Source of the DNA: Kineosporia mesophila
GTDB taxonomy: Bacteria; Actinomycetota; Actinomycetes; Actinomycetales; Kineosporiaceae
Assembly (NCBI RefSeq): GCF_021129235.1
Contig: NZ_JAJOMA010000008.1
Location: 62,001 to 126,000, forward strand
Length of the DNA: 64,000 bases
Reading direction: 5' to 3'
Shown here: positions 27,202-55,635 of the stretch, one piece after another
Numbering within the stretch: position 1 is the first letter of the stretch
Layout: each line of letters starts with the position of its first letter
Made by a program: the position numbers and the translations under genes
The notes under the pieces: model-generated
Databases searched by the model: none
What the model was told of the DNA's origin: nothing
The model's input: only the letters and a program-made list of their open reading frames with translations

Positions 27202-27284
27202 CGTGATCATGCAAAACCTCCCCGGAGTTCTAGAACTCTCCGCCGAACAGTTCTAGAACTCCGGGGAGGTTTTGCATGATCACG
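27202..27284. repeat. 83-bp intergenic palindrome, intact copy
   Basis: Two perfect 36-base arms (27202-27237 and 27249-27284) flank an 11-base loop. Each arm reads from outside CGTGATCATGCAAAACC, then TCCCCGGAGTTCTAGAACT; the inner AGTTCTAGAACT is itself self-complementary. The copy lies between the end of the lipase-like gene and the truncated 5' end of the protease gene. Relatives are at 47601, 48784 and 55554. Confidence 0.9.
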
Positions 27285-27302
27285 GAGGTATTTTTTGGGG
27301 GG

Positions 27303-28280
27303 TCATGCGGGGGCGGGGTGGGCCTTCAGCCAGGCCTCGATGACCTCGTAAGCCCTTTCCCGCACCGGTGGCAGGGACAGGAGAACGTCGTGACGCGCGT
27401 CCTCAATTGGCACCACGGTCGTCTCGCCACCGAGGCAGCCGGCCCAGCGGGCGATCTGGCGCACGTCGAGCACCCCGTCGCCGCGGTCGCTGGCCGGGGT
27501 GTACTCGGGCTCGAAGTGGGACTTGTCGGAGCGCAGCACCAGTGAGGGCACGCCGATGTCGAGACCGCGGTGCAGCTGGGCGTGGCCGCGCCGGACCGCG
27601 TTGAGCCAGCCCGCGGTGACCGGGAAGCCCTCCAGTGGTTTGAGGGCGATGTCGAAGTCCCATTCGCCGGTGACGCTGGTGTGCAACGTGCTGCCGTAGA
27701 TGCTGGGTGGCAGGCTGAAAACCCGGAAAGGGCTGGTGTGAGCCAGGACCCGGAGCATCCAGGTGCCCGGTCCGCGCAGGAGGGCCCGGCCCTGCAGGTC
27801 GAACCACGGGCTGTTCAGGATCACGCCGACCACGGGGGTGGTCACGCCGGTGCGGCGCTTGCGGTCGAGGTACAAGGGGACGATGAGCCCTCCCGTCGAG
27901 TGGGCGAGGAGGGTGACGGGGGTGCCCGGGTGGTCCTCCTCGATCAGGGCCAGGGTCCGGTCGAGCTCCGCGTCGTACTGCTGGAGGTCCGCGGCGTAGT
28001 GCGCGGTCTGGCCGGGTGTGCGGGCCCGTCCGCACTTGCGCAGGTCCAGCGCGTAGAAGGCGAGGCCGCGAGCCGCGAACCAGTCGGCCATCGAGGTCTG
28101 GAAGAAGTAGTCCGAGAACCCGTGCACGTAGAGCACCGCCCCGCGCACCTCCTCGTCCGCCCGCGGGGTGCGGCGCACCACGACGGCCCGGACCTGACCC
28201 TCACCGTCCGGATCGGTGCCCAGCGGCAGCGTGTGCTGCTCGTAGCCGTCGCCGAGGAGATCTCCGGTCCAGGAACTCAT
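27303..28280 (-). CDS. Alpha/beta hydrolase, monoacylglycerol lipase/lysophospholipase-like
   Basis: A protein of 325 residues from ATG 28280; a longer frame to 28343 would overlap the divergent kinase gene. It has GAVLYVHGFSDYFFQ for the oxyanion hole, ALDLRKCGRA, the nucleophile elbow LLAHSTGGLI and a C-terminal EDARHDVLLS with the catalytic histidine. There is no signal peptide, so it is probably cytoplasmic. The family hydrolyses lysolipids, monoglycerides or small esters. It is divergent from the histidine kinase gene, and the 83-bp palindrome sits 18 bases after its stop. Confidence 0.87.
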   Translation of the reverse strand: MSSWTGDLLGDGYEQHTLPLGTDPDGEGQVRAVVVRRTPRADEEVRGAVLYVHGFSDYFFQTSMADWFAARGLAFYALDLRKCGRARTPGQTAHYAADLQQYDAELDRTLALIEEDHPGTPVTLLAHSTGGLIVPLYLDRKRRTGVTTPVVGVILNSPWFDLQGRALLRGPGTWMLRVLAHTSPFRVFSLPPSIYGSTLHTSVTGEWDFDIALKPLEGFPVTAGWLNAVRRGHAQLHRGLDIGVPSLVLRSDKSHFEPEYTPASDRGDGVLDVRQIARWAGCLGGETTVVPIEDARHDVLLSLPPVRERAYEVIEAWLKAHPAPA

Positions 28281-28314
28281 CTGCTGATCATCTCTATCCG
28301 TACGCTGGGCCCTG

Positions 28315-29946
28315 ATGGAACTGCTGAGGGGAAAAGTAGACACTGCGCTCCGGGTCGCACGCCGGGCGGGCTGGCCGCGGGTGGCCTACGAGGCCGCTCT
28401 CGCCCTGTTCTGCGGCTTCACCGAGCTGGTGCTGGGCGCCGCGTACGCGCCGGGCCAGGAGAGCCTGCTCGTGATCGGCCTCTTCGGCCTGGCCGGGACG
28501 GTCGCGGCGCTGGTGATCGTGCCGCTGCGTCGGCTGTGCCCGATGACCGCGCTGGCTCTCGGTGCGGCCCTCTCACTGGTGCACTTCGGCACCGGTTTCA
28601 CGCTGATCGTGCTGGCGGCGGGGGCCGGGTACCGCGCGAGGCGCCCGCCGGCGATCCTGCTGGGATTCGGGTTCGTCCTGGTCATGGGCATGGTCGGGGC
28701 GGTCGCCCAGACCGACAGCGGGCTGGTGTTCGGTCTGCTGACCGGGCTCATGCTCTTCTGCCTGACCGCCGTCGCGCCCGCCGCCGTCGCCGCGATGATC
28801 GCCCAGCGCCGCCTGCTCGTCATGACCATGCATCAGCGCAACCTCGAGCTGCACCAGGAACGGCTGCTGGTCGCCGGCCAGGCCCAGGCCCGTGAGCGCA
28901 ACCGGATCGCGGCCGAGCTGCACGACTCCCTGGGCCATCGCCTGACGCTGATGTCGCTGTACACGGGTGGGCTGTCACAGTCCCTCGGGCCCGCCGGGGC
29001 GAGTTCAGCCACTGGGGGCACCTCCCGGCCCCCTGGGGGCCGGGGGACCACCATGACCGCTACCCCACAGGTGACCGAGGCACTGACCCTGTTGCGCGAC
29101 ACCTCCGCGCAGGCGATGGGGGAGCTGCGGCAGATTCTGCGGATCCTGCACCAGGACGGTTCGGTCGAGGCGGGGCGCTCGCTGGACGAGGTGGAGGCCA
29201 CGGTCGCCTCGGCGCGGGCGACCGGTACCCCGATCGAGCTGGTGCGCAGCGGTGAACCCCGGCCCCTGAACCTGCTGGCCGAGCACGCCGCGTTCAGGGT
29301 GGTGCAGGAGGGGCTGACCAATGCGCTGAAGTACGCCGGGGGAGCCCCGGTGCGGGTCGAGGTGCGGTTCGAGGACGACGCGTTGTTCGTCGAGGTGCGC
29401 AACCGCCCCGGGCGCTTCTCGGACGGTCCGAGTACCGGCCAGGGGCTGTTGGGGCTCGCCGAACGCGTGCGGCTGGCGGGTGGTGTGTTGTCCCACGGGC
29501 TGGTGGACGTCGGTGGCTTCCGTCTGGGGGCGATGCTTCCCTACGAGTCGGAGGTCCCGGAGCCGGTTCCCGGCCCGGGTGACTTCCCGCAGGAGATCCG
29601 GCGCAGCGGCCGCCGTCAGCGCAACGGGCTGATCGCGGTGGTGGGCGCGCTGGGGGTGGCCCTCGTCGCCGCGGTCGGCGCCTTCTTCGCCGCCGGTTCG
29701 CCGGAACCCTTGCCGGAGAACGTGTTCACCTCGTTCCGGGTGGGTGATGACGAGGCCCGCACCCGCGAACTGCTCCCCACCACCCCGCTCAGCTCGCGCA
29801 CCACCGACCAGGGCGCGGCCTGCGGTACCTACCTGGCCGACCTCTACGTGCAGCCGGAGAACGGCGGCGAGGTGCGCTACGAGGTCTGCTTCCGGGACGG
29901 GATGGTGGACAGCAAGCGTGTGCTCCAGCCGCGAGGGAGCGGGTGA
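28315..29946 (+). CDS. Histidine kinase (HisKA_3/NarL type) with C-terminal extracytoplasmic domain, orphan
   Basis: A 543-residue kinase. Five to six membrane helices fill residues 20-165. The dimerisation block RNRIAAELHDSLGHRLTLMS places the phospho-accepting histidine at 203, and an HATPase_c domain follows (FRVVQEGLTNALKYAGG, GLLGLAERVRLAGGVLSHG). After the catalytic domain comes another helix (LIAVVGALGVALVAAVGAFF) and a small outside domain with two cysteines (FRVGDDEARTRELLP, AACGTY, YEVCFRDGM). A 24-residue insert at about 226-249 coincides with a GC-rich hairpin. No response regulator is adjacent. A close paralogue lies at 45858-47468, nearly identical around the H box. Confidence 0.9.
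   Translation: MELLRGKVDTALRVARRAGWPRVAYEAALALFCGFTELVLGAAYAPGQESLLVIGLFGLAGTVAALVIVPLRRLCPMTALALGAALSLVHFGTGFTLIVLAAGAGYRARRPPAILLGFGFVLVMGMVGAVAQTDSGLVFGLLTGLMLFCLTAVAPAAVAAMIAQRRLLVMTMHQRNLELHQERLLVAGQAQARERNRIAAELHDSLGHRLTLMSLYTGGLSQSLGPAGASSATGGTSRPPGGRGTTMTATPQVTEALTLLRDTSAQAMGELRQILRILHQDGSVEAGRSLDEVEATVASARATGTPIELVRSGEPRPLNLLAEHAAFRVVQEGLTNALKYAGGAPVRVEVRFEDDALFVEVRNRPGRFSDGPSTGQGLLGLAERVRLAGGVLSHGLVDVGGFRLGAMLPYESEVPEPVPGPGDFPQEIRRSGRRQRNGLIAVVGALGVALVAAVGAFFAAGSPEPLPENVFTSFRVGDDEARTRELLPTTPLSSRTTDQGAACGTYLADLYVQPENGGEVRYEVCFRDGMVDSKRVLQPRGSG
29024..29044. repeat. GC-rich perfect hairpin inside the kinase gene
   Basis: CCCGGCCCCC and GGGGGCCGGG pair around a single T. It encodes part of an extra loop just after the H box that the paralogue fills with an unrelated, shorter sequence. 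It looks like an in-frame insertion of a short palindromic element. Confidence 0.55.
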
Positions 29947-29948
29947 GC

Positions 29949-29981
29949 AACCTTTAATAAGAGCGGCGCTTATTAAAGGTT
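29949..29981. promoter_or_regulatory. AT-rich palindromic operator upstream of the Fic gene
   Basis: AACCTTTAATAAG and CTTATTAAAGGTT are perfect 13-base arms around a 7-base loop (AGCGGCG). A related half-site, CCTTAATAAGG, follows at 29993-30003. Such AT-rich DNA is rare here. It starts five bases after the kinase stop and ends 57 bases before the Fic start, so it could be both a terminator-like hairpin and an operator bound by the Fic protein's winged-helix domain. Confidence 0.6.
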
Positions 29982-30038
29982 ATGGCGATATCCCTTAATA
30001 AGGAGAGATGCTGGCCAAGGATCTGGGGGGTTGTTCGG

Positions 30039-31241
30039 ATGGTGCAGGGGTTCGAGATCCACTACGAAGAGTATCGCTGGGAGTCCGATCCGGACGCTCC
30101 ACCGACGTCGCGTCGCGCACGGATGGCGGCTCGCGGGCCTTACCGGGCAGCGATACCGGCGACGGTGGCCGAGCGGGCTTTTTCCGTGTCCGGGCCGGTC
30201 GAGGCGGGGGCGTCCGATGCCCTGTCCGAAATCGTACGCTTCGACGGCGAGCTCTCCGCAGGCATCCTGGGCCAGGACGACGAGTTCACGCCTCTGGCGG
30301 CGGTGCTGTTACGCACCGAGTCGGCGTCGTCGTCGCAGATCGAGAACGTGACGGCGGGGGCGAAGGCGCTGGCCATGGCCACGTTGCAGGAGAAGAGCGA
30401 CCCGAATGCCCAGCTGGTGGCGGCCAATGTCGAGGCCATGCAGCGGTCGGTGGCGATGGCCGACGAGCTGACCGAGCAGACGGTCCTGGACGCGCACGAG
30501 GCTCTGCTGCGAGGGCAAGACCATGCGCACCCCGGAAGGTTCCGCCCGGCGCAGGTCTGGATCGGTGGCTCGTCGTCCAGCCCGCACACAGCCACTTTCG
30601 TTCCGCCGCATCATGAACGGGTTCGGGCAGCGATGGCCGACCTGATGGATTTCTGCCGTCGTACCGACGTGCCGGTACTGACCCAGGCGGCGATCGCCCA
30701 CGCCCAGTTCGAGACCATCCACCCGTTCGCCGACGGCAACGGCCGAACCGGCCGGGTGCTGGTGCACGTCCTGCTGAAGCGCGCCGGGGCCACGCGCCGG
30801 CTGACCGTGCCGGTGTCGGCCGGTCTGCTGGTCGACACCGAGTCCTACTTCGCAGCCCTGACCGCTTACCGCGCAGGCGATCCAGAGCCGATCGTGGAAC
30901 GGTTCAGCGAGGCGGCGTTCGCGGCCGTGGGCAACGGACGGGTTCTGCACCGGGCCTTGCTCGACCGGTTCGCCGAGTGGGAGGGGCGGCTCACGGCGCG
31001 GCGGGGCGCGGCGGTCTGGAGGGTGCTGGCCCTGCTGGTGCGGCAGCCGGCGATCACCGTGAAATTCGTGCAGGAGCAGGTTGGGGTGTCGGCGCCGGCC
31101 GCGCAGAACGCCGTGGACCAGCTGGTGGGGGCGGGGGTGATCTCGCCGGTGAGTGCGAACCGGCGTAACCGGGTGTGGCTGGCCGACGAGGTGATCACCG
31201 CACTCGACGAGTTCGCGGACCGGGCCGGGCGTCGCGGGTGA
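30039..31241 (+). CDS. Fic-family protein, class II (N-terminal inhibitory motif), with winged-helix C-terminus
   Basis: A 400-residue protein from ATG 30039 (VQGFEIHYEEYRWESD). The Fic active motif HPFADGNGRTGR is complete at residues 228-239, so AMP or another nucleotide moiety could be transferred to a target protein hydroxyl. The inhibitory motif S/TxxxE(G/N) is present upstream as SSQIEN with Glu102, which defines a self-inhibited class II enzyme. A beta-flap region lies near VWIGGSSSSPHTATF. The last 100 residues form a winged-helix domain (VKFVQEQVGVSAPAAQNAVD), probably for DNA binding and autoregulation at the AT-rich palindrome upstream. The following gene starts inside its stop codon. 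Confidence 0.9.
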   Translation: MVQGFEIHYEEYRWESDPDAPPTSRRARMAARGPYRAAIPATVAERAFSVSGPVEAGASDALSEIVRFDGELSAGILGQDDEFTPLAAVLLRTESASSSQIENVTAGAKALAMATLQEKSDPNAQLVAANVEAMQRSVAMADELTEQTVLDAHEALLRGQDHAHPGRFRPAQVWIGGSSSSPHTATFVPPHHERVRAAMADLMDFCRRTDVPVLTQAAIAHAQFETIHPFADGNGRTGRVLVHVLLKRAGATRRLTVPVSAGLLVDTESYFAALTAYRAGDPEPIVERFSEAAFAAVGNGRVLHRALLDRFAEWEGRLTARRGAAVWRVLALLVRQPAITVKFVQEQVGVSAPAAQNAVDQLVGAGVISPVSANRRNRVWLADEVITALDEFADRAGRRG

Positions 31242-31591
31242 GCGTCGAGCTGGTGCCCGAGATGGTCGCGGCGGTGGAGGCGGCCGGGGATCCGGCGGAT
31301 GCGGAGGTGCGGGACACCCTGGGGGCATGGCTGCTGGTGCATCCCTCCCGCCGCGGCATCCTGGACGAGCTGATCGGGTCGGATTCGGTCTGGGAGCGGC
31401 GCACGGCCCTGGACGGGTTCCTCGACACCTACGCCCCGGTGATGCCGCGCACCATGCTGCGGTACGCGATCGAGAGGCACGCGGCCCCGGAGCGCCGCGA
31501 CCTGCTGAGCCGGGGTACGTACGGATCTGGCGACGGATCGGACTTGCGCGATCGTCCGGAATTCTTGTCTGACCGTTCCGGCGGCAGGTGA
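31238..31591 (+). CDS. Short AlkD/DNA-alkylation-repair-like protein, probable deletion derivative
   Basis: A 117-residue frame starting at GTG 31238 inside the Fic stop (GTGA). Two pieces resemble actinobacterial AlkD-type HEAT-repeat proteins: WLLVHPSRRGILDELIGSDS with WERRTALDGF from the middle of the family, and MPRTMLRYAIERHAAPERRD from the C-terminal end. The usual 220-240 residues and the DNA-contacting helices between and after these blocks are missing. It is therefore either a shrunken protein or a remnant with a central deletion. Function in repair is doubtful. Confidence 0.5.
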   Translation: MSVELVPEMVAAVEAAGDPADAEVRDTLGAWLLVHPSRRGILDELIGSDSVWERRTALDGFLDTYAPVMPRTMLRYAIERHAAPERRDLLSRGTYGSGDGSDLRDRPEFLSDRSGGR

Positions 31592-31595
31592 TCTG

Positions 31596-32552
31596 TCACA
31601 CAGCGTGCCCGGCCAGGTCGGGTGCCTCCAGGTTGCGGCGCCGGCCGCGGTACCGGCCGGGGGAGATGCCGTGGATGCGCTTGAACGCGTGGCTGAACGA
31701 CGACTCGGTGGAGTAGCCCAGCGAGTGCGACAGGGCGGCGATGGTGACGTCGTCCTCCGTGAGCGCGCGTTCGGCCAGGCGCATGCGCCAGTGCGTGAGG
31801 TAGGTCAGCGGGGGCATGCCGGCGGCCTCGCGGAAGCGCTCGGCGAACGTGGTGCGGGACATCGCCACGGTGTGGGCGAGGTCTTCGAGGGTCCAGTTGC
31901 GCTGCGGGTCGGCCTGCATCCGGTGCACGGCCGGGGCCAGGCTGGGTGTGGCCAGCACGCGCAGCCAGCTGGGCGGGCAGGCGGCGGGGTCGGCCAGGTA
32001 GCCGCGCAGCACCTCGACGAACAGCAGGCTCGCGTACTGCCGGGCGGCGAACTCGGAACCGCCCTGATCTCGCTCCATCTCGTCGAGCAGGCGGTCGAGC
32101 AGCCAGCGCAGCACCGGGGCCTGGCCGTCGCTCGCCCGGATGTGGGTGACCGGTTCCAGCGCGGCCAGCAGCAGTTCCTCACCGCTGCGGTCGAGCGCGA
32201 TGTGACCGCCGACCAGGGCCACGTCGGGGCTCTCGCCCAACTGCACGGTCTGGCTGTTGCGGTCGTGGAGCCGGAACAGCGCCTCACCGTCGGTGGGGTT
32301 CAGGCCGGGGTCGCTGGACATGATCTGCCGCAGGTCGCCGTGCACCACGGCGATGTCGCCCTCGGCCAGCCGGATCTGCCGGTCGGCGCCGGGGACGGTC
32401 AGCCAGAACTCTCCCCGGGCCGGGGCGACGAGCATCAGCGGGGCGTGCGCGCGCAGGGTCAGCGACCAGGGGCCCTGGGCCTTGATGGCCCGGGCGAGCA
32501 CGCACCGGGCATCGATCATGGACAGGGCCGCTGACAGAGGGTCACTGGACAC
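31596..32552 (-). CDS. AraC-family transcriptional regulator with cupin sensor
   Basis: A protein of 318 residues from GTG 32552, which has GCAGGT upstream; the frame is open to 32687 but that would overlap the divergent gene. A cupin_6-type sensor (IRLAEGDIAVVHGDLRQIM) covers the first 180 residues. The AraC domain lies at about 215-305 with WTLEDLAHTVAMSRTTFAER and IAALSHSLGYSTESSFSHAF. It is divergent from the haloperoxidase-type hydrolase, the usual partner of this regulator group, and likely controls it. Confidence 0.9.
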   Translation of the reverse strand: MSSDPLSAALSMIDARCVLARAIKAQGPWSLTLRAHAPLMLVAPARGEFWLTVPGADRQIRLAEGDIAVVHGDLRQIMSSDPGLNPTDGEALFRLHDRNSQTVQLGESPDVALVGGHIALDRSGEELLLAALEPVTHIRASDGQAPVLRWLLDRLLDEMERDQGGSEFAARQYASLLFVEVLRGYLADPAACPPSWLRVLATPSLAPAVHRMQADPQRNWTLEDLAHTVAMSRTTFAERFREAAGMPPLTYLTHWRMRLAERALTEDDVTIAALSHSLGYSTESSFSHAFKRIHGISPGRYRGRRRNLEAPDLAGHAV

Positions 32553-32667
32553 CTGCGTACTCTCGCGCAAGTTCCCCGAACTCTCAAGCACAGCCGGGAA
32601 CGGTCCGCGTTGGCAGCATGGGAACGTCCCCCTGGCACGCTCGACACTGTGAGAAAGAACGAGGCAC

Positions 32668-33483
32668 ATGCCCACCATCACCACCACTGACGGCGTCGAG
32701 ATCTACTACGCCGAGCACGGCACCGGGCAGCCCATCATCTTCAGCCACGGCTGGCCGCTGAACTCCGACGCCTGGGCGCAGGAGCTCAAGGTCTTCGCCG
32801 ACGCCGGTTACCGCGCGATCGCCCACGACCGCCGGGGTCACGGCCGCTCCAGCGCGACCACCACCGGCAACGACATCGACACCTACGCGCGTGACCTGGC
32901 GGCCCTGGTCGAGGCCCTCGACCTGCGTGACGTGGTCGTCGTCGGCCACTCCACCGGGGGTGGCGAGGTCGTGCGGTACGCCGCGCAGTACGCCGCCGGC
33001 CGGGTCGCCAAGGTCGTCACCATCGGCGCCGTTCCGCCGCAGATGGTCGCGAACGACGCCAACCCCGACGGTGTGCCGATCGAGGTCTTCGACGGCATCC
33101 GCGAGAACGTGCTGAAGGACCGCTCGCAGTTCTGGAAGGACCTGTCGGAGTCGTTCTTCGGTGCCAACCACGGCCGCGATGTCTCCCAGGGCGCGAAGGA
33201 CGACTTCTGGCGGATGGGCATGACGGCCGACCTGGTCTCTGCCTACGACTGCGTGAAGGCCTTCTCCGAGACCAACTTCGTCGAGGACCTGAAGGCCCTC
33301 GAGGTGCCGATCTTCATCGGGCACGGCGACGACGACCAGATCGTGCCGCTGGCCAACGCGGCCGAGAAGTCGATCAAGCTGGTCAAGGACGGCACGCTGA
33401 AGATCTACGCGGGCGCCCCGCACGGTGTGCACGGCGACTTCCAGCAGCAGTGGCAGAAGGACGTCCTGGCCTGGCTGGCCTGA
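32668..33483 (+). CDS. Non-heme (cofactor-free) chloroperoxidase-type alpha/beta hydrolase
   Basis: A 271-residue hydrolase with full similarity to bacterial cofactor-free haloperoxidases/perhydrolases. It shows FSHGWPLNSDAWAQEL, AHDRRGHGRS, the nucleophile elbow VVVGHSTGGGEV (Ser near 95), the aspartate in FIGHGDDDQIVP and the histidine in YAGAPHGVHG. It is cytoplasmic, with no signal peptide. It can act as an esterase and form peracids in acid buffers; the natural substrate is unknown. A strong hairpin terminator follows 10 bases after the stop. Confidence 0.95.
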   Translation: MPTITTTDGVEIYYAEHGTGQPIIFSHGWPLNSDAWAQELKVFADAGYRAIAHDRRGHGRSSATTTGNDIDTYARDLAALVEALDLRDVVVVGHSTGGGEVVRYAAQYAAGRVAKVVTIGAVPPQMVANDANPDGVPIEVFDGIRENVLKDRSQFWKDLSESFFGANHGRDVSQGAKDDFWRMGMTADLVSAYDCVKAFSETNFVEDLKALEVPIFIGHGDDDQIVPLANAAEKSIKLVKDGTLKIYAGAPHGVHGDFQQQWQKDVLAWLA

Positions 33484-33493
33484 GTTCCTTCCT

Positions 33494-33526
33494 GATGTGG
33501 CCGGTGCGGTTCGCACCGGCCACATC
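33494..33526 (+). terminator. Rho-independent-type hairpin after haloperoxidase gene
   Basis: GATGTGGCCGGTGCG and CGCACCGGCCACATC are perfect 15-base arms around GTT. It lies 11 bases after the stop and is followed by no strong T run. Placement and stability fit a terminator. Confidence 0.8.
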
Positions 33527-33630
33527 GTCATGAACGCAGGTGAAAGGGCATGGCGAGGAGCTGCCGGCCGGAGCGATCGTGAACGTGCGTCGGCCCGGTG
33601 CTCCCGCGGCTCCCGCCAGGACAGTGGATG

Positions 33631-33682
33631 CGTTGTGTACATCTGGTACATCCGGTACCGGATGTACCAGATGTACACAACG
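33631..33682. repeat. 52-bp perfect palindrome without loop
   Basis: Arms 33631-33656 and 33657-33682 are exact reverse complements meeting at GGT/ACC. Each arm contains TGTACATC and GGTACATC, a near repeat ten bases apart, so the whole element offers several nested palindromes. The base composition is AT-richer than the flanks. It lies in a stretch without intact genes between the haloperoxidase terminator and a TetR fragment. It is not similar to the 83-bp family. Confidence 0.9.
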
Positions 33683-33837
33683 CAGACCGGCCGGCTCGCG
33701 CTCGGGTGCCGTCGACCGGACTCGGAGCTCCAGGAACGGTGACAGCCCGGCGCCCTGCCCCCCGCACACGATGTGCACCAAGGCCCTGGCCGCTTCCGTC
33801 GGATTGTCGGGTTCGGGCGTTCGGTTCCTTCGGGGGA

Positions 33838-34164
33838 CCGCACGCCGTCCAGGGCCCTGGTCAGGACGCGCTCGCGTTGCCCGTCGTCGGTGAAAGTGGA
33901 GCCGCTGACGGCGTTGAACAGGCGCCGGACGTCTTCGAAACTGACGTCCGGGCAGGCTTTCCCGGCCTTCTGGGCGTGCTCGGGCAGGGGGCGGCCGGCG
34001 CCGTGCACGATGTCGCGGCACGAGGTGAACATGGCCGATTCGCGGTCGAGGGCCTCGTAGACGGCGCGCTTGATGGTCGCGTGGCCGACGAAACGGCGCA
34101 GCCAGATCGTCAGGGCCTCCCAGGGTTCCAGGCCGGACAGCTCTTCGGCGGTCGCGGCCCACAC
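33838..34164 (-). pseudogene. TetR-family regulator, C-terminal fragment
   Basis: Reading leftward, the frame contains LSGLEPWEALTIWLRRFVGH, AVYEALDRESAMFTSCRD and FEDVRRLFNAVSGSTF, the ligand-domain pattern of an SbtR-like TetR protein. The helix-turn-helix is absent because sequence upstream of about 34164 belongs to a transporter fragment on the other strand. No stop follows in frame, so the 3' end is also damaged. It is clearly a remnant. Confidence 0.7.
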
Positions 34165-34345
34165 CGCCCCCGGCGGGGTGGCCACCGAGTCCGGCTTCAC
34201 CACCGCGTTCGTCCTGATGGCCGCGCTCGCCGCGGTGTCGGTCGGCGCGGCGGTGCTGGTGCCGGCCGCGACCCGGATCGATCGGCGGACCCTGGTGCGC
34301 GCCCCGGCCGGACAGGCCGAGGAGGCGCCGGTGACGGCCAACTGA
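34165..34345 (+). pseudogene. MFS transporter, C-terminal fragment
   Basis: The frame reads ESGFTTAFVLMAALAAVSVG, AAVLVPAATRIDRRTLV and ends in APVTAN. This is the last helix and tail of a drug-efflux MFS (DHA2-like) transporter. All earlier helices are missing. It abuts the TetR fragment head to head, as expected if a deletion removed the 5' ends of a divergent tetR/efflux pair together with their shared promoter. Confidence 0.65.
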
Positions 34346-34397
34346 ACCACAGCGGGACCGGAGCGGACGCGCGTCCCTCATCGGCCGCCGTGCGAGA

Positions 34398-47468: not shown

Positions 47469-47805
47469 CGCAGCACGAGCCTAGGGCATGGGGGCAGCTC
47501 GCCGGGTGCCCCAAAGTGCTTTCCCAGAATCACCTTCCGTGATGAAGGCGGTGGATTGCGTAACGGTCGACCGGGGGCACGGCGCCCTAACACCCCCTCC
47601 TTCGTGATCATGCAAAACCTCCCCGGAGTTCTAGAACTCTTGCGCTCACAGTTCTAGAACTCCGGGGAGGTTCTGCATGATCACGGCAGGGGTGTCGGGG
47701 TTGTTGCGGCCGGGTGGAGGAGGCGTGCCCGGTGGTTCACACCAGCCCGGCGGAACAGTCCTCGACCGGCGCCGGGTGCCGGTTCTCGGGGGCAGTGGGG
47801 CCGGC
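47469..47805. other. Intergenic region holding one 83-bp palindrome
   Basis: No gene is seen between the kinase start and the end of the BrkB-like gene. Apart from the palindrome at 47601-47683 and the likely kinase promoter near 47480-47560, I find nothing distinct. Confidence 0.4.
47601..47683. repeat. 83-bp intergenic palindrome, near-perfect copy
   Basis: Arms 47601-47636 and 47648-47683 (36 bases each) flank an 11-base loop. One mismatch exists: the right arm has TTCTGC where the others have TTTTGC. The left arm is identical to that at 27202, while the loop sequence (CTTGCGCTCAC) is unrelated, showing that the arms but not the loop are conserved. Confidence 0.9.
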
Positions 47806-48651
47806 TCAGGAAGATTCGGTCAGCATCGCGTGAATCGACCAGGTCAGGGCGTAGCCCACGCAGACCACGGCGTGCAGCACCCAGAGCCAGAGCAGCAGCC
47901 CGGTCGTGACGCCGACGATGGTCAGGCCGCCGAAGGGCCGGCCGAGATCGACGGGCAGGGCCAGGAACAGGGTGAAGCCCTGGAGGAAGCCGGAGATGAA
48001 GGCCGCGGTCACCACGGCCGAGATCCAGGCGGCCCTCCAGCTCGGCCGTCCCGGGGCCACCACCCGGAACATCCAGGCCAGCGGTGCCCAGAGGATCACC
48101 CAGACCAGGTTCAGCCCGAGGTAGGAGGCCACGGCGACCCCGGCCAGGCCGTTCTCGGTCTCCAGGTTCTCCACGGTCGGGGTGACCACCAGCAGGGCCA
48201 GCAGCATGAGCGGGGCCAGGCCGAGCAGCGGCAGCGTGAGGATGCGGGCCCGGATCGAGGGTGGGGGAGCGGAGCGGTGCTCGGCCGGCATCAGCCGGGC
48301 CAGCGCCTTTCCCAGCCCCCGCCCGTACGCCGAGGCCATGAACACGGCGAGCAGCACGGACGGCACCGACAACGACAGCCCGGCGTCGAACAGCGCCACC
48401 ACCCAGCGGTCGGCGCCCTGCTGGGCAGGGATCGCCGAGGCCAGGTCGGCAGCGTGCTCGGCGATCAGGTCGCGGCCGAACAGCAGCCCGGCCGAGGCGA
48501 TGGCGACGAGCAGGGTGGGCACCGCGGCCAGCGCCCCGTACAGCGCGGCCCCCGACGACAGCAGGGCGGTGTCGGTGCCGGTCAGGAGCACGCGCGTCCC
48601 CGCCACCGCCCGGGTCACCGCGGATCGAACTCGTGACCACCGGGTAAGCAC
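47806..48651 (-). CDS. YihY/BrkB-family inner membrane protein
   Basis: A protein of about 281 residues from GTG 48651; the frame stays open further upstream into the palindromes but those codons are not protein-like. Six hydrophobic segments are visible (ALYGALAAVPTLLVAIASAG, LSVPSVLLAVFMASAYGRG, LLGLAPLMLLALLVV, YLGLNLVWVILWAPLAW, GLTIVGVTTGLLLWLWVLH). This is the YihY/BrkB pattern of about 280-300 residues, including the pair of small-residue-rich first helices. The molecular role of the family is not settled. The gene is divergent from the NYN-like gene. Confidence 0.8.
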   Translation of the reverse strand: MLTRWSRVRSAVTRAVAGTRVLLTGTDTALLSSGAALYGALAAVPTLLVAIASAGLLFGRDLIAEHAADLASAIPAQQGADRWVVALFDAGLSLSVPSVLLAVFMASAYGRGLGKALARLMPAEHRSAPPPSIRARILTLPLLGLAPLMLLALLVVTPTVENLETENGLAGVAVASYLGLNLVWVILWAPLAWMFRVVAPGRPSWRAAWISAVVTAAFISGFLQGFTLFLALPVDLGRPFGGLTIVGVTTGLLLWLWVLHAVVCVGYALTWSIHAMLTESS

Positions 48652-48708: not shown

Positions 48709-48771
48709 CGTGATCATGCAAACCTTCCCCGGCGCTCCAGGGGATGAGAGCTCCGGAACACCGGGGGAAGG
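48709..48771. repeat. Decayed copy of the intergenic palindrome
   Basis: The left half starts CGTGATCATGCAAACC and TTCCCCGG like the intact copies. The right half keeps only CCGGGGGAAGG and has lost the TTTGCATGATCACG end. It lies 13 bases from an intact copy at 48784. Confidence 0.65.
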
Positions 48772-48783: not shown

Positions 48784-48866
48784 CGTGATCATGCAAAACC
48801 TCCCCGGAGTTCTAGAACTGTGGCCGCGAGAGTTCTAGAACTCCGGGGAGGTTTTGCATGATCACG
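48784..48866. repeat. 83-bp intergenic palindrome, intact copy between divergent genes
   Basis: Perfect 36-base arms (48784-48819 and 48831-48866) flank an 11-base loop, GTGGCCGCGAG. GTT precedes the left arm as in the variant at 23235. This copy lies upstream of two divergent genes, so it cannot be serving as a terminator for either. Confidence 0.9.
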
Positions 48867-49648: not shown

Positions 49649-49667
49649 GCAGGATTTGAGGCGAGGT

Positions 49668-49726
49668 GGTGCGCGCCCGGTCCCCGAGGGGGCCACCCCC
49701 ACGGGGGCCCGAACCGGGCGCGCACC
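49668..49726 (+). terminator. Long hairpin terminator after the NYN-like gene
   Basis: GGTGCGCGCCCGGT (49668-49681) and ACCGGGCGCGCACC (49713-49726) are perfect 14-base arms, and the interior folds further (GGGGGCC with GGGGGCCC partners). It begins 20 bases after the stop. Confidence 0.75.
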
Positions 49727-50028: not shown

Positions 50029-50138
50029 GCGCGGGGCGCCGGTGAGTACGGCGGTTCCCAGGACCTGTTCAGGGCAGGTTCTCAGGAACACGATTCAGGC
50101 CTGTTCAGGGCAGACCTGATGACTCACCGGCCCCGCGC
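50029..50138 (+). ncRNA. Candidate structured leader (three-way junction) upstream of pectate lyase
   Basis: A closing stem pairs GCGCGGGG-CG-CCGGTGAGT (50029-50047) with ACTCACCGG and CCCCGCGC (50122-50138): 17 pairs and a 2-base bulge. Inside are two hairpins with the same 7-base loop TTCAGGG: one from GTTCC...ACCTG to CAGGT...GGAAC (50054-50089), the other CAGGCCTG to CAGACCTG (50096-50118). The repeated loop and enclosing stem suggest an RNA sensor or protein-binding leader. I cannot match it to a known riboswitch class. It ends 54 bases before the ATG. Confidence 0.5.
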
Positions 50139-50192
50139 GGACACTCCTTTGGTGCCTCGGATGCATCACCCCTCTGCCCAGGAAAGGGAGCT

Positions 50193-51095
50193 ATGCAGTC
50201 GCATCGCACGAATCACGGGAAGACCGGTAACGGTCTCACCCGTGGCCGCATGTCGCGCATGTTCAGCGGCAAGCGCCGTCTCTGGACCGGTCTGGTTGCC
50301 GGTATCGCCCTGGCCGCGGCCGCGGGCACCGTCGCGTCGGCTGCCAACAGCAGCTCGTCCTCGACGAGTTCCGTTAGCGCCGCTGCGGTTTCGACGCCGA
50401 CCGGCCCGAGCACGCTGAGCAAGACCTGGCCGACGCCGACGGGTACCACCAACCTCACCGCGACCAAGGCGATCTCCGGCACCTACGACGGTGGCATGAA
50501 GCGCTTCCAGGGCTGGGGCGGTACGCAGGACGAGGACCAGGACCCGCTGTTCACGGTGGCCAACGGTGGCACCATCAAGAACGTGATCATCGGCGCGAAG
50601 GCGGGCGACGGCATCCACTGCCTGGGCACCTGCACCATCCAGAACGTCTGGTGGGAGGACGTGGGCGAGGACGCCGCCACCCAGAAGGGCAAGATCGCCG
50701 GCCAGGTCATGACGATCGACGGTGGTGGCGCGAAGAAGGCCAGTGACAAGGTCTTCCAGCACAACGGCCCGGGCAAGATGATCATCCAGAACTTCGTGGC
50801 CCAGGACTTCGGCAAGCTGTACCGCTCGTGCGGTAACTGCTCGACGCAGTACCAGCGCTCGGTGGCGTTCTACAACGTCATGATCGTGGAGCCGGGCAAG
50901 TCGCTCGCCGGCATCAACACGAACTACAAGGACACGGCGACCTTCAAGTGGGTGCGTCTGTACGACGCCAACAAGAAGATCTCGATCTGTGACCGCTACA
51001 CGGGTAACAGCAGTGGCAAGGAGCCGACCAAGACCGGTTCCGGCGCCGACGGCACCTACTGCAAGTACACCTCCTCGGACATCACCTACAAGTAG
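50193..51095 (+). CDS. Secreted pectate lyase, PL3 family
   Basis: A 300-residue exported enzyme. The N-terminus is long and basic before a signal helix (WTGLVAGIALAAAAGTVASA), then a Ser/Thr linker. The catalytic domain is the short right-handed beta-helix of family PL3: ISGTYDGGMKRFQGWG, EDQDPLFTVANGGTIKNVII, GDGIHCLGTCTIQNVWWEDV and GEDAATQKG are strong family signatures with the calcium-binding acids. It cleaves polygalacturonate by beta-elimination outside the cell. A good ribosome site (AAAGGGAG) precedes ATG 50193, and a structured leader lies further upstream. A terminator hairpin follows. Confidence 0.93.
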   Translation: MQSHRTNHGKTGNGLTRGRMSRMFSGKRRLWTGLVAGIALAAAAGTVASAANSSSSSTSSVSAAAVSTPTGPSTLSKTWPTPTGTTNLTATKAISGTYDGGMKRFQGWGGTQDEDQDPLFTVANGGTIKNVIIGAKAGDGIHCLGTCTIQNVWWEDVGEDAATQKGKIAGQVMTIDGGGAKKASDKVFQHNGPGKMIIQNFVAQDFGKLYRSCGNCSTQYQRSVAFYNVMIVEPGKSLAGINTNYKDTATFKWVRLYDANKKISICDRYTGNSSGKEPTKTGSGADGTYCKYTSSDITYK

Positions 51096-51129
51096 GCGGT
51101 CTTCGCTGCCTGTCGGCAGCTTTCGAGAG

Positions 51130-51167
51130 AATCCGGTCCGGTCCCGTCGCGGGGGCCGGGCCGGATT
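51130..51167 (+). terminator. Hairpin terminator after the pectate lyase gene
   Basis: AATCCGG...CCGG...CCC pairs with GGG...CCGG...CCGGATT around a short GTCGCG loop, with two single-base bulges. It lies 35 bases after the stop and is followed by TTTCG. Confidence 0.75.
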
Positions 51168-51278
51168 TCGTGTGTCGATGGTGGACGCGGGCCCCTCGCC
51201 CTTCGGGTTCGCCGACGTCATCCCGCTCTGCGGTGAAAGCGGAAGCAGGGCTTCCGGTATCGGTGCCACGCTGGCCGC

Positions 51279-51848
51279 ATGGACACAGAGAACCCGGACT
51301 GGAACCACCTTCTGCGCGAGCAGTGGGAGTTTCACTGGAATCAGCAGCTACGGCCCCGGCTGGAGGGCCTGACCGACGACGAGTACTTCTGGTCGCCGGT
51401 GCCGGACGCCTGGAACATTCGGCCCCGCGGCACCTCGCCCGCCCCGATCCAGGGGGGCTCTGGTGACTTCACGATCGATTTCGCTTACCCCGAGCCGGAT
51501 CCGGCTCCCTTCACCACCATTGCCTGGCGACTGTGTCACGTCATCGTCGGCGTGCTGGCGACCCGTAACGCCGCGCACTTCGGGGCGCCCGCCGCCGACT
51601 ACTTCACCTGGGACTACGCCGGTGATGCGGTGACCGCCCGGACCCAGCTCCAGGAACAGCTCGACGTCTGGTCGGAAGGCCTGCGAGGACTCGGCACGAA
51701 GGGTCTGCTGATGCCGGTGGGGGAGGCCGAGCCGTACCCGGCTGACTCGATGGCCGAGCTGGTGCTGAACATCCAGCGGGAGCTGATCCATCACCTGTCC
51801 GAGGTCGCGTTGCTGCGTGACCTGTACCGGTACACCGTCAAGGGCTGA
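51279..51848 (+). CDS. DinB-family protein
   Basis: A 189-residue four-helix-bundle protein of the DinB/YfiT type. It starts with NPDWNHLLREQWEFHWNQQL, followed by GLTDDEYFWSPVPDAWNIR, FTTIAWRLCHVIVGVLATRN and QRELIHHLSEVALLRDLY. The histidines at CHV and at IHH are in the positions of the metal triad. Members act as thiol-dependent (mycothiol or bacillithiol) transferases or have unknown roles. It is a single gene between the pectate lyase terminator and the antiporter gene. Confidence 0.9.
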   Translation: MDTENPDWNHLLREQWEFHWNQQLRPRLEGLTDDEYFWSPVPDAWNIRPRGTSPAPIQGGSGDFTIDFAYPEPDPAPFTTIAWRLCHVIVGVLATRNAAHFGAPAADYFTWDYAGDAVTARTQLQEQLDVWSEGLRGLGTKGLLMPVGEAEPYPADSMAELVLNIQRELIHHLSEVALLRDLYRYTVKG

Positions 51849-51937
51849 GGCGGGCCGTCCGGACGGGCGCGGAACCGGACCAGGTATGAGGATGGGCGCT
51901 GAACGGACGCGCGCCAGCTGTACGCGTCGAGCAGCCC

Positions 51938-53242
51938 GTGACCCGTCCGGACACCGACCCAGGGAGCCGTGCCGTCGTGACGACCACGTCCGCCGTCGAA
52001 CTCTCGCCCCGCGACCGCACCCGCGTCCTGATCCGCTCGATCGGCCTGTGCGTGCTGCTGGCCGCCCCGGCCGTGGTGATGCGCCTGTCCGGACTCGAGG
52101 CCGAGCCGGTGGTCGCGATGATCGTCTACGGCGGAGCGGTCTTCGCGGCCTCGTTCGTGCTGGCCTGGGCGGCGGAGGCGGCCCAGGTCGACATCTCCGG
52201 CGGCCTGGCGATCGCGATCCTGGCGCTGATCGCGGTGCTGCCCGAGTACGCCGTCGACCTGTACTACGCGTACACGGCCGGCAGCGATCCGGGATACGTG
52301 CAGTACGCCGCCGCGAACATGACCGGCTCCAACCGGCTGCTGCTCGGCCTGGGCTGGCCGGTGGTGGTGCTGGTCGGGCTCTGGGGGCTCAAGCGCGTGC
52401 ACCAGCGACGTGGGCACGTGCTGCCGCTGGACGCGGGTAACCGGCTGGAGATCGGATTCCTGCTACTGGCCGGGATCTTCGCCTTCGTCATGCCGATCAC
52501 CGGGCAGATCCACGTCTGGATGGGCGGCGTGCTGTTCTTCTGGTTCGGCTACTACGCCTACCGGCTCAGCCGCGGCGCCGTCGAGGAACCGAAGCTGCGC
52601 GGGGCGTCCGCCGCGATCGGCACGCTGCCGCAGACCGCGCGTCGGCGCACCCTGATCGGGCTCTTCGTGTTCGCTGCCGCCGTGGTGCTGATCGCCGCCG
52701 AGCCGTTCGCCCACAGCCTGGTCGAGGGCGGGAAAGACCTCGGGGTGGACGAGTTTCTGCTGGTGCAGTGGGTGGCCCCGCTCGCCTCGGAGGCCCCCGA
52801 GTTCATCATCGCCATCATGTTCGCGGCCCGTGGCAACGCCACCGCCGCGATCGGCACCCTGATCTCGGCGAAGGTCAATCAGTGGACGCTGCTGGTGGGC
52901 TCGCTGCCGATGGCCTACTGGGCGGGCGGCGGCTCCCCGGCGCTGCCGCTGGACGGCCGGCAGGTGGAAGAGGTGCTGCTGACCGCCACGCAGACCATGC
53001 TCGGCATCGCGCTGATTCTCGGACTGCACTTCCACCGATGGTCGGCCTGGATCCTGCTCGGGCTCTTCCTGGTGCAGTTCCCGGTGACCGGTACCCACGG
53101 GCGGATCGTGCTCAGCATCGTCTACGCGGTGGTCGCGCTCGCGGCCCTGGCGTGGAACTACCGGCACCTGGTGCCCACCCTGCGCGCACCCTTTGCCCGG
53201 GAGCTGATCCCCGAGTCGGAGTACGCCGGGCACCAGCCCTGA
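51938..53242 (+). CDS. Sodium/calcium exchanger (CaCA) family antiporter
   Basis: A 434-residue membrane protein with about 11 helices. The two ion-binding alpha repeats are recognisable: ALIAVLPEYAVDLYYAYTAG with NMTGSNRLLLG in the first half, and LASEAPEFIIAIMFAARGNA with IGTLISAKVNQWTLLVG in the second. Both carry the conserved acidic residue (LPEYA and SEAPEF). The loop between helices 5 and 6 is short. The ion is probably calcium exchanged for sodium or protons. It ends directly against the stop of the opposing ABC transporter gene. Confidence 0.9.
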   Translation: MTRPDTDPGSRAVVTTTSAVELSPRDRTRVLIRSIGLCVLLAAPAVVMRLSGLEAEPVVAMIVYGGAVFAASFVLAWAAEAAQVDISGGLAIAILALIAVLPEYAVDLYYAYTAGSDPGYVQYAAANMTGSNRLLLGLGWPVVVLVGLWGLKRVHQRRGHVLPLDAGNRLEIGFLLLAGIFAFVMPITGQIHVWMGGVLFFWFGYYAYRLSRGAVEEPKLRGASAAIGTLPQTARRRTLIGLFVFAAAVVLIAAEPFAHSLVEGGKDLGVDEFLLVQWVAPLASEAPEFIIAIMFAARGNATAAIGTLISAKVNQWTLLVGSLPMAYWAGGGSPALPLDGRQVEEVLLTATQTMLGIALILGLHFHRWSAWILLGLFLVQFPVTGTHGRIVLSIVYAVVALAALAWNYRHLVPTLRAPFARELIPESEYAGHQP

Positions 53243-55162
53243 TCATTTCCCGTAACCGGCGGCCTGGAGCCGGAACAGCTCCGCGTAGCGCCCGCCGAGC
53301 TCGATCAGCTGGGTGTGCGTGCCGGTCTCGGTCACCACGCCCTCGTGCATCACGTAGATCACGTCCGCGTGCATCACGTTGGCCAGGCGATGGGTGATGA
53401 GGATCGTCGTGCGCACCCCCTGCCGCGCGCGCAGGTCCTGGAACAGCGCGTCTTCCGCCCGCGGGTCGAGCGCGGACGACGGCTCGTCCATGATCAGCAG
53501 GTCCGCGTCGCGGTAGAAGCCCCGGGCGGCCGTGATGCGCTGCCACTGCCCGCCCGAAAGGTCCTGCCCCTCCTTGAAGGTACGGTCGAGCAGGGTGCGG
53601 TAGCCGTGCGGCAGGTCGAGGATCATCTCGTGGGCCAGCGCGCGCCCGGCCGCCAGCTCGATCCGTGCCTGGTCGGTGTCGGCGGAGAGGTTGCCCATCG
53701 CGATGTTGGCCGCGGCGGAGTACGGCCACTTGTGATGATCCTGCAGCACCACGCCGACCCGCCCGCGTAGCGAGGCCGGATCCCAGGCGTCGTAAGGTTT
53801 TCCGTTCCAGAGGAAGGTGCCCGAGGTGGGGCGGCGCAACCCCGCGACCATGGCCGCCAGGGTGGACTTGCCCGAGCCGTTCTCGCCGACCAGGGCGATC
53901 GTCTGCCCGGCCGTGATGGTGAAGGAGACATTGTCCACGGCCGGGGCGGGGCGCTCGGGGTACTGGAGGTGCACGGCCCGGATCTCCAGGTGCTGCAACG
54001 GGCCGGCCGGCGGACGCTCGGGCCCGGTCTGCTCCGGCAGGTAGGCGTCGGCGCGTTCCAGGAAGGTGAGGTACTCCTGCACGTACTGCCCGCTGGTGTA
54101 GACGTAGTCCAGCTGAAAAGTGAGGTGGGCCAGGCCGAGCTGGGCCGCCTGCACGGCCAGCACACAGGTCACGGCGGCCGACAGCGGAATCCGGTCGGTG
54201 GCCAGCAGCCAGCCGAGCAGCACCCAGACCAGGGCCAGACCGACGCCCCCGACGACGGCCCCGACCGCGCTGGTGACGGCGATGCGGCGGGCCAGCCCCA
54301 GCTCCACCGCGGACTGGGCCCGCATCACCATGTCGTACTGGTGCAGCAGGAAGCCGCGCAGGTCATAGGTGCGCAGTTCGGGGGCGGACTCCCGGTCGGC
54401 CATCTGCCGCTCCAGCACGTACATCCGGCGGCGCCGCACGGAACTGGCCACGTAGGTGGCGTACCGCAGGTGCCCCGCCCGCATGGCGGCGTAGGTCTTG
54501 GGGGCCGAGGCCACCAGCAGGGCCACGAGCAGCAGCGGGTTGATGAAGAGCAGGGCCACCGCGACGGCGATCACGTTGACCAGGCTGGCCAGCCCGTCGG
54601 CCGTGCCCTCGACCAGCTCGGACATGGACTCACCGGCCTGTTTGGCGCGCTCCATGTCGTCGGCGAAGGTGTCGGCGTCGAAGGCCTCCAGCCGCACCCC
54701 GGTGGTCGCCTCGAAGAAGCGGCGCTCCGAGGCCTGTTTCACCAGGGGCTCCAGACCGGTCATCGCATAGCCGACCGTGATGGCCAGGGTGCCCCGGACC
54801 ACCGCGATACCGCCGAGCACGATCAGGGCGGGCACCGCGGCGCGCACCCGGTCGGGGGTCGGCCCGGCGCCGAACAGCTCCACCAGCACGCGCTGGGTGG
54901 AGAGCAGCCCGAACGTCGACATCGTGCCGGCCCCGAGCGTGGCCAGGGCGACCAGCAGGGTGCGGACGCGGTCGGCACGCCAGGCCACCACCACGGCGTG
55001 CGCGGCGAGACGGGGCAGCTCGGCGAAGATGCCGGAGACCGCCACCTCGGCCCGGCGCCGGGTACCGGTCTCCCACCAGGCTTCCCGAAGCTCGGGAAGC
55101 ACTGAGAGATCGGTATTTTCATACATTGCTGGGTCTGCCGGCGTTGCCGTGGTCGTGTCCAC
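53243..55162 (-). CDS. ABC transporter, fused permease and ATPase (exporter type)
   Basis: A 639-residue half-transporter from GTG 55162, with AGGAG eight bases upstream. The permease part (about 60-345) has five to six helices. The ATPase part holds Walker A (GENGSGKSTLAAMVAGL), the signature LSGGQWQRI, Walker B (LLIMDEPSSALDP) and the H-loop (ILITHRL). The Q-loop reads VVLQDHHKWPYSAAANI, typical of peptide or lipid exporters near lantibiotic loci, but no precursor peptide or modification gene is nearby. The cargo is unknown. It converges with the CaCA gene with no gap. Confidence 0.9.
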   Translation of the reverse strand: MDTTTATPADPAMYENTDLSVLPELREAWWETGTRRRAEVAVSGIFAELPRLAAHAVVVAWRADRVRTLLVALATLGAGTMSTFGLLSTQRVLVELFGAGPTPDRVRAAVPALIVLGGIAVVRGTLAITVGYAMTGLEPLVKQASERRFFEATTGVRLEAFDADTFADDMERAKQAGESMSELVEGTADGLASLVNVIAVAVALLFINPLLLVALLVASAPKTYAAMRAGHLRYATYVASSVRRRRMYVLERQMADRESAPELRTYDLRGFLLHQYDMVMRAQSAVELGLARRIAVTSAVGAVVGGVGLALVWVLLGWLLATDRIPLSAAVTCVLAVQAAQLGLAHLTFQLDYVYTSGQYVQEYLTFLERADAYLPEQTGPERPPAGPLQHLEIRAVHLQYPERPAPAVDNVSFTITAGQTIALVGENGSGKSTLAAMVAGLRRPTSGTFLWNGKPYDAWDPASLRGRVGVVLQDHHKWPYSAAANIAMGNLSADTDQARIELAAGRALAHEMILDLPHGYRTLLDRTFKEGQDLSGGQWQRITAARGFYRDADLLIMDEPSSALDPRAEDALFQDLRARQGVRTTILITHRLANVMHADVIYVMHEGVVTETGTHTQLIELGGRYAELFRLQAAGYGK

Positions 55163-55271
55163 CGATCCACTCTCCTGGGGTACCCGGAGGTAGTCGATGG
55201 AGGATGCAGCGAGAGGTCCCCGAACCCGGTGTCGGGGTGCGGGAGTCCCCGGCCGGTGTCAGGGTCGGACC

Positions 55272-55544
55272 ATGACCGACCCAGTGAACCAGGCCGCCGG
55301 AACTCCCTCGAACCTCGTCGAGGGGCAGGGCGTGAACGCGGGCGAGCAGGACCAGACCGCGTCGGCCCACGGCGACGTCCGGCGCGGCGGCGACCCGCAG
55401 AACGCCCCGGACCCGCGTGAGGGTTTCGCCGGATACCCGTCGCAGAAGTCCGACGAGCAACTGACGGGCGGCTCGATCTCGAACGACCCGGAGGCGGAGC
55501 GGAAAGACGGAAACTCCGGCCAGGATGAGGGCCTGATGAACTGA
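55272..55544 (+). CDS. Small hydrophilic hypothetical protein
   Basis: A 90-residue frame from ATG 55272. It is rich in Gly, Asp, Glu, Asn and Gln with no hydrophobic core (NLVEGQGVNAGEQDQTASAH, GFAGYPSQKSDEQLTGG), so it is probably disordered. No family is recognised. Third-position GC is high, consistent with coding, but there is no clear ribosome site. An imperfect palindrome of the 83-bp family follows ten bases after the stop. Confidence 0.5.
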   Translation: MTDPVNQAAGTPSNLVEGQGVNAGEQDQTASAHGDVRRGGDPQNAPDPREGFAGYPSQKSDEQLTGGSISNDPEAERKDGNSGQDEGLMN

Positions 55545-55553
55545 CAACCCCTC

Positions 55554-55635
55554 CGTGATCAGGCAGAACCTCCCCGGCTGTCCAGAGCTCTCAATACACA
55601 GTTCTAGAACTCCGGGGAGGTTTTGCATGATCACG
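55554..55635. repeat. Intergenic palindrome, copy with one decayed arm
   Basis: The right arm (55600-55635) is identical to the intact family arm. The left arm (55554-55589) has several changes (CAGGCAGAACC for CATGCAAAACC, GTCCAGAGCT for GTTCTAGAACT), and the loop is ten bases. It lies between two convergent genes. Confidence 0.85.

Follow-up and report, generated by a model that had tools for sequence, protein, structure and literature searches.

Among described systems of short repeats and associated genes, the closest are those built on repetitive extragenic palindromes (REPs). According to the accessible part of PMC3116915, a REPIN is made of two REP units in inverted order, whose ends are conserved, whose spacer is less so and which show compensatory changes; REPINs are linked to REP-associated tyrosine transposases (RAYTs). 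The REPtron layout, as given in the available portion of PMC8266576, places REPs in the DNA that flanks a family-specific gene, and a REP unit carries a GTAG or CGTC tag at its end (PMC3733652, in the sections available). Here we analyse a 64,000-nt stretch of the Kineosporia mesophila genome, hereafter the window (G000:C60:62001-126000; genome G000 is a 7.78-Mb draft in 61 contigs), in which 83-bp palindromes made of two arms and a loop are dispersed between genes. We read them, with a probability of about 0.7 for this reading as a whole, as a REPIN-like repeat population linked to a non-RAYT nuclease, in which the element consists mostly of inverted pairs of a roughly 23-36-nt unit and many intergenic copies are maintained. 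The observations behind this are copy number, position, the contrast of arms and loops, covarying arms, bracketing of the nuclease gene, inversion of its cassette and absence of PF01797. The palindromes are strongly linked to the nuclease gene; their spread by the nuclease is our inference.

The 24-nt end of the arm was found at 164 forward and 179 reverse sites of G000 (up to 3 mismatches), that is 343 sites against 0 for the reversed control. The arms are thus far from confined to the window, a case that an earlier note on this DNA had considered, and the search of relatives it proposed showed that the sister genome G005 has the arm too. Two forms were counted with the same tolerance. Of the 83-bp form, in which 11 nt separate two TTCTAGAA cores, G000 has 102 copies; of a loopless 44-bp form, G000 has 51 and G005 has 41. 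Among copies of the loopless form, a 7-nt stretch of the arm varies (AAAACCT, GAACCTT, AAAGTGT, CAACGTT and others), and the opposite arm usually has the complement of this stretch, so that the two arms covary.

The 24-mer proved narrowly distributed: with up to 2 mismatches it was present in 2 of 58 genomes (G000's own and those of its genus, family and order), namely G000 and its close sister G005. At this threshold it was absent from G001-G004, and G005 alone of the five other genus members has it. Palindromes of several actinomycete families have this same outer end, CGTGATCATGC, around different interiors. The pattern CGTGATCATGC-N22-52-GCATGATCACG gave at least 83 stretches in named genomes; among the matches listed, most were from Actinomadura, Planotetraspora and Bailinhaonella, the others from Microbispora, a Kineosporiaceae metagenome-assembled genome (MAG), other actinomycete genomes and MAGs, and one myxococcal MAG. 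Interiors were genus-specific in the 80 of these loci that were read, such as AGTTGTTCGCG (Actinomadura) and AGTTTTGAGCACA (Bailinhaonella); in Planotetraspora, CGTGATCATGCA / TGCATGATCACG pairs surrounded mostly non-palindromic interiors, and often a CTG...CAG lay about 16 bp further out. An 11-mer was then surveyed in 393 genomes of the class, and the densest were picked by reading the table: G013 (294 sites in 3.1 Mb), G139 (301 in 4.3), G000 (426 in 7.8), G034 (109 in 3.8), followed by G081 (66 in 4.0), G016 (34 in 4.2), G123 (24 in 3.6) and G183 (39 in 7.9 Mb). The rest had about 4 sites per Mb or fewer. Inverted pairs with a 10-40-nt interior numbered 34 in G139, 11 in G034, 4 each in G013 and G123, 2 in G016 and 1 in G183. 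In stretches chosen for known palindromes, inverted pairs were the commonest neighbour type in G034 and G016 and tied with same-direction neighbours in G139 (13 and 13).

Outside the window, both full arms stand 1.1 kb apart at G000:C1:144962-146086 with a single gene between them, on the minus strand at G000:C1:145011-145970, encoding a protein of 319 aa (P0001). A gene flanked by the same arms, which the earlier note had suggested looking for, therefore exists, but it is not of the RAYT type: PF01797 gave 0 matches in G000 and G005, which speaks against a RAYT as partner, and was found in one of six genus genomes, G004, itself without the 24-mer. P0001 matched Pfam AbiEi_4 above the cut-off and AbiEi_1 below it (E 0.00077), and PADLOC AbiEi at 8.8e-18. 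An alignment of nine members matched REase_MTES_1575 in all nine (best 2.5e-11), AbiEi_1 in six, AbiEi_4 in four and DUF559 in four; NCBIfam had no match for P0001 and weak single-member matches for the others of the nine. E210, R214, E254, G257 and H261 were identical in 27 of 27 homologues and D243 in 26, and the conserved E / D / E-x-(D/E) core of PD-(D/E)XK nucleases is present at the level of sequence. The partner is probably an AbiEi-type winged-helix DNA-binding half fused to a predicted PD-(D/E)XK nuclease half. When 13 chosen genomes were searched with this protein, strong homologues (E from 6.9e-217 to 6.9e-21) were obtained in nine motif bearers: G000 (100% identity), G005 (92), G013 (51), G139 (46), G034 (45), G016 (45), G183 (39), G081 (38) and G123 (31%). 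G001-G004, which also lack the 24-mer, had weak homologues at most (best 3.5e-9).

The homologue is bracketed by inverted TGATCATGC units in G000, G005, G013, G034, G016 and G139, and in four of these six tandem units stand on both sides (4 and 2, 3 and 2, 4 and 3, 4 and 3). The remaining three showed variants: the left array of G081 reads GCGATCATGCA, the ends in G183 read CGTGATCTTGCA and its complement, and G123 has a whole palindrome on one side and a unit on the other. Bracketing of the best homologue was simple and exact in 6 of the 9 motif-bearing genomes, and present in 9 of 9 with variants allowed. Comparison of the locus between G000 and G005 revealed an inverted cassette: the outer sides align at 94% and 91% in the same orientation, but the stretch that the arms enclose aligns, at 92%, in reverse. 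Both breakpoints fall in the arms, and an identical 29-bp insert is present in both G005 arms, 1.1 kb apart. The locus thus shows that the arms have recombined and that the two have changed in concert. Both genomes are drafts, so that an assembly error could mimic this inversion, and the inversion does not in itself imply a role of the nuclease.

We then examined how general the bracketing is, with 18 further homologues, one per genome, hand-picked from the upper part of a list given by a profile of the nine proteins on the 393 class genomes (not strictly its top 18). Inverted flanks, scored as the left flank against the reverse complement of the right (40 or more), were present in 23 of 27 loci, 9/9 of the first set and 14/18 of the further one; the control, 630 cross-locus pairs with pairs within the first nine left out, had a 95th percentile score of 32. 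The repeats themselves differed. Flanks in G127, G102 and G151 had the motif [CT]TGATCATGCA, and those in G396, G351, G335 and G274 had unrelated units repeated at 21-22 bp or multiples. YTGATCATGCA sites numbered 35 in G102, 38 in G151, 22 in G127 and 15 in G061, versus 1-7 in G283, G126, G114 and G098. In G358, CTCGCGAGAGAC recurs in dispersed inverted pairs with spacings of 60, 82, 103 or 125 bp; in its congener G283, none of 19 pattern matches is the CTCGCGAGAGAC 12-mer. Weaker homologues, taken from the search of 13 genomes, were not bracketed by the motif of the first nine (single isolated matches in L300 and L307). The expectation that they would have no flanking repeats nevertheless failed: other inverted flanks were found in 8 of 20 tested (L309 omitted), six clear (scores 60-126) and two marginal (37 and 38). 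No TGATCNTGCA motif was present within the 8.7 kb examined at the Nonomuraea gerenzanensis locus. Carriage by phages or plasmids was weakened as a candidate, since none of the records with matches (5 plasmid, 1 phage) covers 80% of the query.

A TGTGGAY/RTCCACA box lies 5′ of the nuclease gene in 25 of the 27 loci (within 220 nt, mostly at 48-120 nt) and at its 3′ side in one of 27. In several loci a TTRTCCACAG-type box adjoins the innermost repeat. We take TTRTCCACA to resemble a DnaA box, and a possible lead is that expression or action of the gene is linked to DnaA through it.

Arms and loops were compared in 36 copies of the 83-bp form, 31 from about 1.1 Mb of G000 and 5 from 0.4 Mb of G005. 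Arms carried 1.87 bits of information per position and loops 0.55 bits. Among the 31 G000 copies the mean pairwise difference was 5.0% for arms, a figure somewhat lowered because copies were chosen by arm similarity (up to 9 mismatches per arm), and 59% for loops. All 36 loops were distinct, in agreement with the earlier statement that loops differ completely; the companion statement, that arms are conserved to the base, holds as high conservation and is slightly overstated at 5% mean difference. Loops are partly constrained, with a bias at the outer two positions of each end. Recognisable loops are common to orthologous G000 and G005 copies (G000:C60:150816 and 258803), hence loops are inherited and not remade at random. 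Other orthologous sites retain the outer end and have the interior exchanged on both arms (G000:C60:85235, 127684 and near 137395).

These comparisons bear on whether the palindromes are miniature inverted-repeat transposable elements (MITEs), mobilised by a DDE, tyrosine or serine transposase of conventional type that has CGTGATCATGC in its ends as well. Conserved inverted ends, a patchy distribution and hundreds of sites in two closely related species fit such an element. Between G000:C60 and G005:C5, sites were shared, had swapped interiors or differed by messy replacements, which speaks against clean insertion with target duplication: the suggestion of a MITE with target duplications has no support so far, no duplication or clean empty site having appeared in this one small comparison. 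Near-identical arms with differing loops, as seen here, are not known from recent MITE copies, and the gene between the arms is a nuclease. We regard a MITE as very unlikely.

The position of the hairpins relative to genes was analysed with gene calls from our own codon-model caller. The gap classes carry some error, since the caller missed the nuclease gene and called a plus-strand gene that conflicts with a minus-strand TetR_C match (34073-34345, within window 32584-34350); of 18 window frames compared with Pfam, 14 had a family hit at E <= 0.001, the TetR_C match among them. The 41 family hairpins (stem score of at least 16) placed over 1.096 Mb of G000 fell in 20 convergent, 17 tandem and 4 divergent gaps, or 20/164, 17/600 and 4/164 of the gaps of each class, and none within called coding sequence. 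In this they differ from DNA uptake sequences (DUS) and uptake signal sequences (USS); DUS are mostly located inside genes. In four other genomes, 98 of 100 GTGATCATGC sites were intergenic (400 kb, in stretches chosen for known palindromes). The 22 tandem cases of G000 and G005 start at a median of 17.5 nt behind the upstream stop and lie at a median of 130 nt before the next start.

Such positions would suit bidirectional intrinsic terminators under selection for the RNA hairpin, homogenised by ordinary gene conversion, the nuclease gene being merely another gene bordered by them. The excess in convergent over divergent gaps, the closeness to stops and the predicted stability (-64.6 to -71.5 kcal/mol for the three near-intact window copies) favour this. 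However, the T count in the 25 nt behind the hairpin (4.7 in tandem, 4.7 and 5.1 in convergent cases) is at the intergenic mean of 4.7, so the canonical U-tract is unsupported. Sense-strand stem mismatches comprised 8 G-U, 5 A-C and 10 others, with no clear G-U bias, and no Rfam model matched window 22900-56000 at the gathering score. On these grounds the canonical intrinsic terminator was rejected, or at least weakened, and the simple terminator envisaged earlier has no support so far. Stem pairing also leaves unexplained the sequence identity of the arms, the outer end common to several families and the bracketing of one gene family in nine genomes. We consider the terminator explanation unlikely.

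Binding to 23-bp inverted repeats in their own promoters is described for Streptococcus agalactiae AbiEi and for Rv2827c (PMC7319586, in the part available). By that precedent, and because the arrays are close to the nuclease gene, the repeats could form the regulon of an AbiEi-like protein, the arrays serving autoregulation and the dispersed copies regulation elsewhere, with no mobility. Copies lie behind stop codons and not at promoters, arrays occur at the 3′ side of the gene too, the nuclease residues are conserved, interiors swap and the cassette is inverted between species. A regulon alone is therefore, in our judgement, quite improbable.

The reading we prefer, a REPIN-like population linked to the nuclease, bears out the earlier note where it proposed a REP-like, non-autonomous element, and it suggests the following scheme. 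By analogy with AbiEi on its 23-bp inverted repeats, the AbiEi half would bind one unit per monomer, and an inverted pair would recruit two monomers, positioning the nuclease halves to cut there or nearby. Repair of the cuts would copy arms from one site to another, keeping arms alike while loops drift, permitting swaps of the interior and seeding new copies. Copies would survive where they are least harmful, just behind stop codons, where the hairpin may also halt RNA polymerase or protect RNA 3′ ends.

Several points weigh against this reading. The match of P0001 to REase_MTES_1575 (E 6e-6) is below the Pfam cut-off, and a PDB profile search gave non-significant matches throughout (E 0.24 or worse), among them a weak one to the mobile-intron protein 3r3p (E 0.65). 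As in the cassette, 3 of 1228 called genes have inverted TGATCAKGC-type sites on both sides, no more than 160 bp away, and about 2-3% of the cross-locus control pairs score as high as positives. Four of the 27 homologues (L322, L325, L326 and L327) have no inverted flanks. The class-wide profile ranking, with G000, G013, G016, G034, G139, G081 and G183 on top, G061 eighth and G123 ninth, is partly circular because 8 of the 9 profile proteins come from those motif-bearing genomes. In G061 the cassette repeats differ from its CTGATCATGCA pairs. Doublets are not universal: G081 has 0 inverted pairs with a 10-40-nt interior, and the G013 sample has 13 same-direction neighbours but 5 inverted ones. 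Finally, the small G000:C60 and G005:C5 comparison, which lacked any clean empty site or target duplication, counts here as well.

A broader proposal goes one step further, and we slightly favour it: the system would be a second, independently evolved REPtron in Actinomycetes, an AbiEi-derived PD-(D/E)XK nuclease that would recognise its own palindromic repeats, spread them and keep them homogeneous, working by cut and repair and not by HUH transposition. As parts of the same proposal, there would be many subfamilies each with its own repeat, several possibly coexisting in a genome, with arms that let the gene flip, and the motif would change along with the lineage of the nuclease, from CGTGATCATGCA through YTGATCATGCA to unrelated 21-22-bp units.

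In the window, the first 17 nt of the arm had 9 matches (up to 3 mismatches) versus 0.10 expected, a number reached in 0 of 100 shuffles. Arms of 36 nt and a loop of 11 nt were borne out, as were the copies previously reported at 27202-27284, 48784-48866 and 55554-55635 and the decayed one at 48709-48771; the copy given near 47601-47683 exists, but its true coordinates are 47603-47685, two positions off, and it has one arm mismatch. None of these features is assigned a strand. The 83-bp copy at 27202-27284 follows an alpha/beta-hydrolase gene (27303-28343, minus), 18 bp beyond its stop. That at 47603-47685 follows a minus-strand BrkB-like gene, 120 bp beyond its stop at 47806, and is absent from the aligned G005 stretch, where the region differs by a large indel. 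The decayed copy at 48709-48771, with a recognisable left arm and its right arm largely lost, is missing from the aligned G005 site. The copy at 48784-48866 has perfect arms and an orthologue in G005; by our own gene calls it stands in a divergent gap, next to a plus-strand gene without Pfam match. At 55554-55635, a copy of the 83-bp type with one perfect and one decayed arm is flanked by convergent genes. The called plus-strand gene of the two, which has no Pfam match, stops 9 bp before the copy, and the G005 orthologue of the copy keeps both arms. The earlier note had overlooked a related loopless perfect palindrome of 50 bp at 23235-23284 (again without strand), which shares the outer end CGTGATCATGC with the 83-bp copies, has a different interior (GCATCTTCCCC) and occupies a convergent gap, 9 and 16 bp from the two gene ends.

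Other arrangements were seen beside the family. Units also form everted pairs, with CCCCGG ends outside and CGTGATCA inside, at G005:C5:222984-223042 and at G000:C1:315151 and 316647; at the site of the first, G000 has a different hairpin in the same place. Two further hairpin families recur in the G000 and G005 samples: the arms are GAGGACG/CGTCCTC in the first, to which 9 of 44 other hairpins belong, and GTGTGCATTC-TTGCG-like in the second. An unrelated perfect 56-bp palindrome, GTTGTGTACATCTGGTACATCCGGT, at window 33629-33684 lies between an alpha/beta-hydrolase gene (stop at 33483) and a minus-strand TetR_C_43 match, inside the same minus open frame as that match and about 50 residues behind it. 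It has relatives at G000:C1:11208, G000:C1:349369 and G005:C5:298639 and is thus a member of another dispersed palindrome family. Finally, a minus-strand trypsin and ricin-B lectin gene at 25702-27132 is seemingly split: the Pfam domains lie in 25702-26613, the trypsin match without its start, and 26680-27132 is a separate called open reading frame.

We found no prior account of an association between palindromes and such a nuclease in the literature searched, a coverage that leaves out most subscription journals. REP and REPIN populations are described, in the papers examined, with one enzyme class, the HUH RAYTs, and how they spread is still a question. If our reading is true, it would suggest that a repeat life-style of the REPIN form arose more than once, would assign a genome-shaping role to a PD-(D/E)XK enzyme and would account for the hundreds of palindromes behind genes in Actinomycetes.

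Three known systems are to be compared. With Vsr-like and DUF559 homing endonucleases the partner presumably shares the broad PD-(D/E)XK fold class, and four of its nine members match DUF559; the difference is that the dispersed units here carry no nuclease gene, and neither an interrupted host gene nor an intron was seen, no search having been aimed at introns. The AbiE type IV toxin-antitoxin system shares the DNA-binding half of the protein and has inverted repeats near the gene too (about 23 bp in AbiE), but the protein here has a predicted nuclease domain and the repeats occur on both sides of the gene and genome-wide. The cassettes of G000, G005, G013, G034, G016 and G139 are almost fully taken up by the gene, which leaves no room for AbiEii between their arms, although no search was aimed at AbiEii. 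The REP/REPIN-RAYT system is matched in its short, high-copy extragenic palindromes, mainly inverted doublets in G000, and in having a family-specific gene between copies of the unit, here for a nuclease where the known system has a RAYT. It differs in the partner (AbiEi-like plus PD-(D/E)XK here, a Y1 HUH transposase, PF01797, there), in the arms, which on direct reading have no GTAG or CGTC tag and end in CGTGATCATGC, and in the host group, here the Actinomycetes. Since both the RAYT test and the GTAG tag failed, we do not file the element as a member of the REP/RAYT family, though it is like one in its working.

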